A stretch of DNA of 44,718 bases, from contig JAUSMU010000055.1 of assembly GCA_030645995.1 (NCBI GenBank), positions 1 through 44,718 on the forward strand, written 5' to 3'. Made by a program: the position numbers and the translations under genes. The notes under the pieces were generated by a model. That model was not told the DNA's origin. It ran no database searches and saw nothing but the letters and a program-made list of their open reading frames with translations. Source of the stretch: Gammaproteobacteria bacterium. GTDB lineage: Bacteria > Pseudomonadota > Gammaproteobacteria > Pseudomonadales > Pseudohongiellaceae. Shown here one piece after another: positions 43,997 to 44,718 of the stretch. The first letter of the stretch is position 1. Each line of letters begins with the position of its first letter.

Positions 43997-44503
43997 ATGA
44001 AACTCGCTTTGATCTGGGCCATGTCGCGCAATCGGGTCATCGGCCGCAACAACGCGCTGCCCTGGCATCTGTCGGAAGACCTGCGCTACTTCAAACGCGT
44101 CACCATGGGCAAGCCCATCATCATGGGCAGAAAGACCTGGGAATCGATTGGCCGTCCGCTGCCCGGGCGTACCAATATCGTCATCACGCGTGATCAGAAT
44201 TTTCAGGCGGTGGGCGTGCGTGTGGTGCACTCACTCGACGACGCGCTGCGCCTTGCCGAACACATCGGTGTCATCGAGGGTGCTGAAGAGGCGGTCGTGA
44301 TCGGCGGGGCCGAGATCTACGCTCTGGCGCTGCCCAAGGCCGAACGTCTTTACCTCACACAAGTACATGCAGAAGTAGAAGGTGATGCCTGGTTCCCTGA
44401 GTTCGATTTGTCGCAATGGCATGAACTCGCCCGCGAGGACTTCAACGCCGAAGGCCCGAACCCATACCCCTACAGCTTTATCGTGCTGGAGAGAGAGCAG
44501 TGA
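43997..44503 (+). CDS. folA: Dihydrofolate reductase
   Basis: MKLALIWAMSRNRVIGRNNALPWHLSEDLRYFKRVTMGKPIIMGRKTWESIGRPLPGR. Confidence 0.97.
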   Translation: MKLALIWAMSRNRVIGRNNALPWHLSEDLRYFKRVTMGKPIIMGRKTWESIGRPLPGRTNIVITRDQNFQAVGVRVVHSLDDALRLAEHIGVIEGAEEAVVIGGAEIYALALPKAERLYLTQVHAEVEGDAWFPEFDLSQWHELAREDFNAEGPNPYPYSFIVLEREQ

Positions 44504-44532
44504 GCAGGAAATTTCGTCTGGCACTGAAAGTA

Positions 44533-44650
44533 GATCTGAGTTGCGGGGAGTTCCACTGCCGGACCGTCTGCCGCCAGGGATGGCGGCAGCCGAGCCTACA
44601 TGGAAGTACTTGCGGCGTGTCCGGCAGTGGAACTCCCCGCAACTCAGATC
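44533..44650. repeat. 118-bp nested inverted-repeat element (31-bp perfect arms, inner 9-bp hairpin)
   Basis: GATCTGAGTTGCGGGGAGTTCCACTGCCGGA at 44533-44563 is the exact reverse complement of 44620-44650; inner CTGCCGCCA-GGGA-TGGCGGCAG at 44568-44589. Confidence 0.9.
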
Positions 44651-44718
44651 GACATTCGAAGCTCAAATCAATTTCGAAAAATCAGTTCAACGGTATAAAC
44701 GCCAACGCATTGTTCTGG

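Follow-up and report, generated by a model that had tools for sequence, protein, structure and literature searches.

A dispersed, probably mobile hairpin element of Gammaproteobacteria with a conserved crown of two predicted CsrA-type loops

The inverted repeat that follows folA near the end of the window (the whole 44,718-nucleotide stretch analysed) is one copy of an element that is repeated tens of times in its own genome, folds into a long stem capped by a branched crown, and covaries in its stem while keeping the A and GGA of two loops nearly constant. Selection acts on one strand in single-stranded form, as either RNA or ssDNA, and the element has inserted at two sites that are empty in relatives. 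We give roughly even weight to the reading that it is a structured RNA, dispersed and probably mobile, with a crown that offers two CsrA/RsmA-type sites to a CsrA dimer.

The 5′ neighbour is folA (dihydrofolate reductase; reading frame 43997-44503, + strand, stop TGA at 44501-44503), whose protein is common to 14/14 congeners. On the other side is the 3′ end of a convergent gene (44682-44718, − strand), with its stop codon at 44682-44684; the full reading frame of 340 aa, ending ...NALAFIPLN, lies on a second contig, C264. The element thus lies between convergent genes, with the contig end 68 bp beyond it. The window contig (C5) and C264 overlap by 141 bp (window 44578-44718), and the end of C264 falls within the hairpin core of this same copy. 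Further copies are at or near the ends of contigs C390, C238, C373, C177, C199 and C50, as if the palindromes were breaking the assembly. The + strand flanks also have counterparts elsewhere: the 5′ flank GGCACTGAAAGTA (44520-44532) holds GGCAC, which recurs just outside the arms of other copies (24/134 5′ flanks versus 5/156 background stretches), and the 3′ flank GACATTCGAAGCTC (44651-44664) resembles other 3′ flanks, where CGAAG/CGGAG and AGCAC are enriched.

The original prediction of a perfect 31-bp nested inverted repeat was exact: 44533-44563 and 44620-44650 are reverse complements at 31/31 bases. One further C-G pair inside the arms (44564/44619) gives a 32 bp stem, with a 5′ arm at 44533-44564 and a 3′ arm at 44619-44650 (both + strand). 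At its top is a three-way junction bearing two hairpins, the anatomy general to the element. In hairpin 1 (44568-44589, + strand; supported by the fold, stem covariation and loop conservation), CTGCCGCC (44568-44575) pairs with GGCGGCAG (44582-44589) around the loop AGGGAT (44576-44581). This had been described as a perfect 9-bp hairpin; the stem is present, with the ninth pair being an A-T that closes GGGA inside the loop. Hairpin 2, which had not been named as such (44594-44616, + strand; supported by stem swaps and loop conservation), has the form GCC-TAC / GTA-(CTTGC)-GGC, with TAC (44597-44599) paired to GTA (44606-44608) around the loop ATGGAA (44600-44605). The predicted fold of the + strand at 44520-44660 has an energy of −98.8 kcal/mol, compared with a mean of −49.8 (sd 3.7) for shuffled sequences (z = −13.1), and none of 200 shuffles was as stable.

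A BLAST search of the genome gave matches at 14 loci, one being the window locus again on C264. A core of ~60 nt was kept among these copies, while the outer arms were mostly unrelated in sequence yet complementary within each copy. With a covariance model (R1) built from 13 copies, the count was 46-48 for this genome and 19-49 for every one of 13 congeners. Other genera within the same family and order carried it patchily, and across the class the element was found in 69/369 sampled Gammaproteobacteria, about a fifth, with named carriers including Marinobacter, Oleiphilaceae, Pseudohongiella, Rheinheimera and Marinospirillum. The richest genomes were G034 (73-78 copies) and G020 (63); G002 had 25 and G025 had 21. 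Outside the Gammaproteobacteria there was almost nothing: one weak match, in a 67%-complete genome. The suggestion of a dispersed element of many gammaproteobacteria is therefore borne out by these counts, and a single-copy sequence is excluded by the tens of copies in the genome itself.

The element is apparently undescribed so far, as had also been suspected. The window and seven loci with other copies gave no match in Rfam 15 at gathering score, and permissive thresholds returned only weak opposite-strand matches far below gathering scores. A search of a plasmid collection gave no match. Full-text searches with the core strings found nothing relevant within the papers that were searchable, and no description was found in the literature on CsrA with repeats or on gammaproteobacterial repeats. 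The minus-strand ORF that runs through the element matched no Pfam or NCBIfam family.

The stem sequence differs in almost every copy (mean arm identity among own-genome copies is 38%), while complementarity is kept within each, and its length is roughly maintained: most arms in the own-genus set have 25-30 bp, four other families have median arm lengths of 26-31, and elsewhere the length is more variable. Compensatory changes were recorded in all three sets of copies. In the own-genome set they affected 16/29 pairs (covariation score 0.48 versus 0.12 shuffled). In the four other families and in further genomes across the class they affected 27/29 pairs (0.82 versus 0.20) and 26/29 pairs (0.89 versus 0.18), respectively, in alignments that were fitted to the model and so favour its fold. 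As a control on these fitted alignments, sliding the partners by one column reduced pairing from 94-97% to 35-46%. The crown behaves similarly. The TAC/GTA stem of hairpin 2 swaps with CCC/GGG and others between copies, and an extra C in GAGCC(C) is accompanied by an extra G in (G)GGCG in a pattern with which 16/16 aligned copies agree (six with the insertions, ten without); since the two insertions co-occur, the GCC/GGC helix is supported. The check that went with the original prediction, for copy-specific arms that covary around a constant inner core, came out positive. Among near-identical copies the changes were mostly one-sided (16 one-sided, 4 two-sided) and among more distant copies mostly two-sided, as expected for mutation followed by compensation. 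An outer stem beyond the flank motifs was clear in a few copies and weak overall (−20.7 kcal/mol with own flanks versus a mean of −17.8 with mismatched flanks).

The arm mismatches identify the strand on which selection acts. With G.T and A.C scored alike, there were 177 G.T versus 34 A.C in one set and 124 versus 40 in the other; G.A/A.G, A.A and G.G mismatches also exceeded their complements. Because mutation in dsDNA would equalise complementary mismatches, selection acts on the + strand in single-stranded form, and the bias is equal in both members of divergent pairs. That this strand is RNA rather than ssDNA is our inference. Together with the lack of conserved repeats in the arms, the G.T/A.C asymmetry also bears on the proposal that the repeat is either a small MITE or a structured RNA: a structured single strand is favoured and an ordinary MITE disfavoured.

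Both crown loops are ANGGAX hexaloops set directly on a stem, with N and X variable. In a set of 160 copies for which GGA was a search condition, the A at −2 was present in 141/160 copies in hairpin 1 and 158/160 in hairpin 2. Many copies were found by a model that includes the loops, and part of the loop conservation is thus built in. However, when 169 copies were chosen by the flanking core and arm complementarity, with no loop condition, GGA was present in both loop regions of 165, compared with 94 for the next most shared trinucleotide. Between families the stems under the loops are rewritten and the loop kept, as in TTGAAAAG-AGGGAC-CTTTTCAA; among 133 scored copies from other families, ANGGA occurred in hairpin 2 in 131 and in hairpin 1 in 107, with a further 13 reading AGGA without the N. 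In nearly all copies, 23-25 nt separate the starts of the two GGA motifs. Copies vary in how open hairpin 2 is predicted to be.

The high-affinity site of CsrA/RsmE is an ANGGAX hexaloop on a stem, in which the protein reads the A and GGA and leaves N and X free (PMC4005645). The CsrA SELEX consensus is RUACARGGAUGU with the AC paired to GU, and a CsrA dimer can bridge sites 10-63 nt apart, best at >18 (PMC7652899). The element has both the loop motif and the bridging distance of a CsrA-binding RNA, and from this match of sequence and spacing we predict that CsrA binds the crown. The genome with the folA copy has csrA, as do 57/58 relatives; being near universal, the gene is uninformative as co-occurrence evidence. 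Nine CsrA homologs were counted in one genome, G052, which has 57 copies of the element.

Comparison of orthologous sites shows that the element inserted. At the folA site, G001 and G003 lack the element, and their convergent stops are only ~30 bp apart. Different species have different repeats at this site: G007 has a Pseudomonas-type REP (TGTAGGAGCG...) and G009 (L252) a dispersed-looking inverted repeat (TTTGGGGTCAGAGTAAAAATAC...GTATTTTTACTCTGACCCCAAA). A second site lies upstream of a uup-like gene (N-terminus MLLYRLSNLTLAYG, identity by inspection), where G000, G013, G009, G010 and G011 have a divergent pair of copies within ~400-500 bp from a TATACT box to the ATG. This site is empty (67-102 bp) in G001, G003, G004, G006, G007 and G012; G008 has a REP-like repeat there and G002 a degenerate copy. 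The empty orthologous sites at folA and uup imply that the element was inserted at both. Target-site duplications had been suggested as a check, and no clear one was found: the uup comparison, made by eye, revealed no obvious duplication between occupied and empty sites, with element boundaries that are not sharply placed. Copying of the arms from the target site was looked for at uup and not seen.

The two copies at uup have different histories. Across G000, G013 and G009 the arms of the left copy are identical, and the ~250 bp that include this copy are nearly identical too (L264, L284-L296), whereas the wider region is ~88% identical between G000 and G009. In the right copy, 13-17/26 arm pairs are changed on both sides and 0-3 on one side (G000, G009, G010); from these sequences it looks as though this copy was replaced whole, by reinsertion or conversion, rather than by point change. 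Divergent pairing is general: all 33 locus-level close pairs in the own-genus survey (some being the same genomic pair counted twice) and 18/18 in the gene-context survey were divergent. The exceptions are mixed clusters in G136 and G404 and a tandem array in G597 of six same-orientation copies every ~227 bp. The units of this array (G597:C1:93900-96300, L334) each also hold a REP-like hairpin, CGCGGCTGAAGCCGCTCCTACAA, and differ by arm wobble changes.

Copies lie between genes, in many cases 5-35 bp away from a stop codon, and their orientation relative to host genes is unbiased, with 26 sense and 31 antisense copies in tandem contexts. The 3′ side faces 39 start codons and 37 stop codons, with genes called by a simple longest-ORF script that gives approximate start positions. 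A 3′-UTR element of the faced gene was dropped as an explanation, given the equal share of start codons and a selected strand that is antisense to that gene. Signals for independent expression were also lacking. There was no −10 peak upstream of copies, and across 144 copies there were no T5+ runs within the first 15 nt past the arm and five in the next 15, so that nothing signals a stand-alone sRNA gene with promoter and terminator; the folA copy likewise has no T-run after the arm. The original prediction was right that the repeat is no ordinary terminator.

The main rival to a CsrA-binding RNA is a mobile hairpin in which the + strand is the substrate of IS200/IS605- or REP-like transposition as ssDNA, with the loops and junction recognised by a putative transposase acting in trans and the divergent pairs perhaps forming the unit of transposition. 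Strand-specific selection suits ssDNA as well, as do insertion at folA and uup, the divergence of all close pairs in the two surveys and an orientation that is random relative to genes. Nonetheless, we consider this rather unlikely. The partner transposase that had been proposed as a check was not found: the Y1 (RAYT) family is absent from G020, G034, G025 and G002, all copy-rich, and was rejected as mobility partner for this reason, and ORFs between long-spaced neighbouring copies, which by inspection resemble an AAA-type ATPase, its companion and a protein like uracil-DNA glycosylase, do not look like transposases. A mobile ssDNA hairpin also leaves the match of the loops to the CsrA pattern without a reason.

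A structural repeat of ERIC/REP type, working in DNA or mRNA as a marker of gene boundaries or a shield for mRNA ends against exonucleases, without a specific RNA-binding partner, is improbable. It would account for the great stability of the hairpin, the intergenic positions close to stop codons and the REP-like repeats that hold the same sites in relatives. However, it leaves the conserved crown and loops unexplained; copies precede start codons as often as they face stop codons, and the strand that faces the transcript of the stop codon is not the one under selection. Chance, an assembly artefact or an ordinary intrinsic terminator would suit the position between convergent genes and the contig end just after the element, and can be dismissed, being refuted by the copy number and covariation of a conserved crown in many genomes and, for the terminator, by the missing T-run.

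Taking the element as a structured RNA that binds CsrA, the + strand would fold within any transcript, as permitted by its free stem sequence. The stem would insulate the crown and the kept junction would space the two loops, so that one CsrA dimer could bridge both GGA loops. Given that signals for its own promoter or terminator were not seen, the element would presumably be expressed via read-through or antisense transcription. A transcribed copy would capture CsrA: in cis, the carrying transcript could come under CsrA control, and in sum, tens of copies could form a distributed CsrA sink. We propose this fuller version, in which a widespread mobile RNA with a dual CsrA-docking crown draws transcripts into the Csr network and acts as a distributed sponge, more tentatively than the two-site crown itself; transcription, CsrA binding, a regulatory effect and the mode of mobility are all putative steps. 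The main weakness is the unbiased orientation, which one would not expect of copies acting in host mRNAs and which a selfish ssDNA hairpin explains at least as well as an RNA element does.

Palindromes scattered through genomes are commonly regarded as DNA repeats without a product. In this element, both a fold and a pattern of protein recognition have been conserved on one strand, and Rfam lacks the element. If CsrA binds, mobile elements would be a source of both CsrA targets and decoys, with a bearing on the growth of global post-transcriptional regulons. The CsrA-type loops, the divergent pairing, the empty sites and the independence from Y1/RAYT transposases are additions to the original prediction.

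Several known systems share some of these features. Like MITEs, the element is short, non-coding, dispersed and inserted; unlike them, its inverted repeats are not conserved in sequence between copies, so that the arms are not the terminal recognition sites of a transposase, and no parent transposon was found. Like ERIC and other stem-loop repeats (PMC2267715), it is intergenic and predicted to form a single long stem-loop, whereas its arms share no sequence between copies and its top is a branched crown; it was not found among the stem-loop families in the available portion of that source. With REP/BIME it shares the form of a dispersed intergenic palindrome of gammaproteobacteria, often in inverted pairs (PMC2817692), but it is much longer, has a free stem sequence and needs no Y1 transposase, and the conserved GT(A/G)G head is missing, with GTAG in some copies and absent in most. 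In having ANGGAX hexaloops on short stems at a bridging distance, it is like CsrB/CsrC, RsmX/Y/Z and the hcnA and glgC leaders. It differs from the CsrB/RsmZ sRNA genes in its tens of dispersed copies without their own promoter or terminator, and from CsrA/RsmA-binding RNAs in having two putative sites only, on a long stem of free sequence. On the features compared, REP/RAYT and MITE membership fails, and motif and spacing place the element among the CsrA-binding RNAs, as a putative binder.
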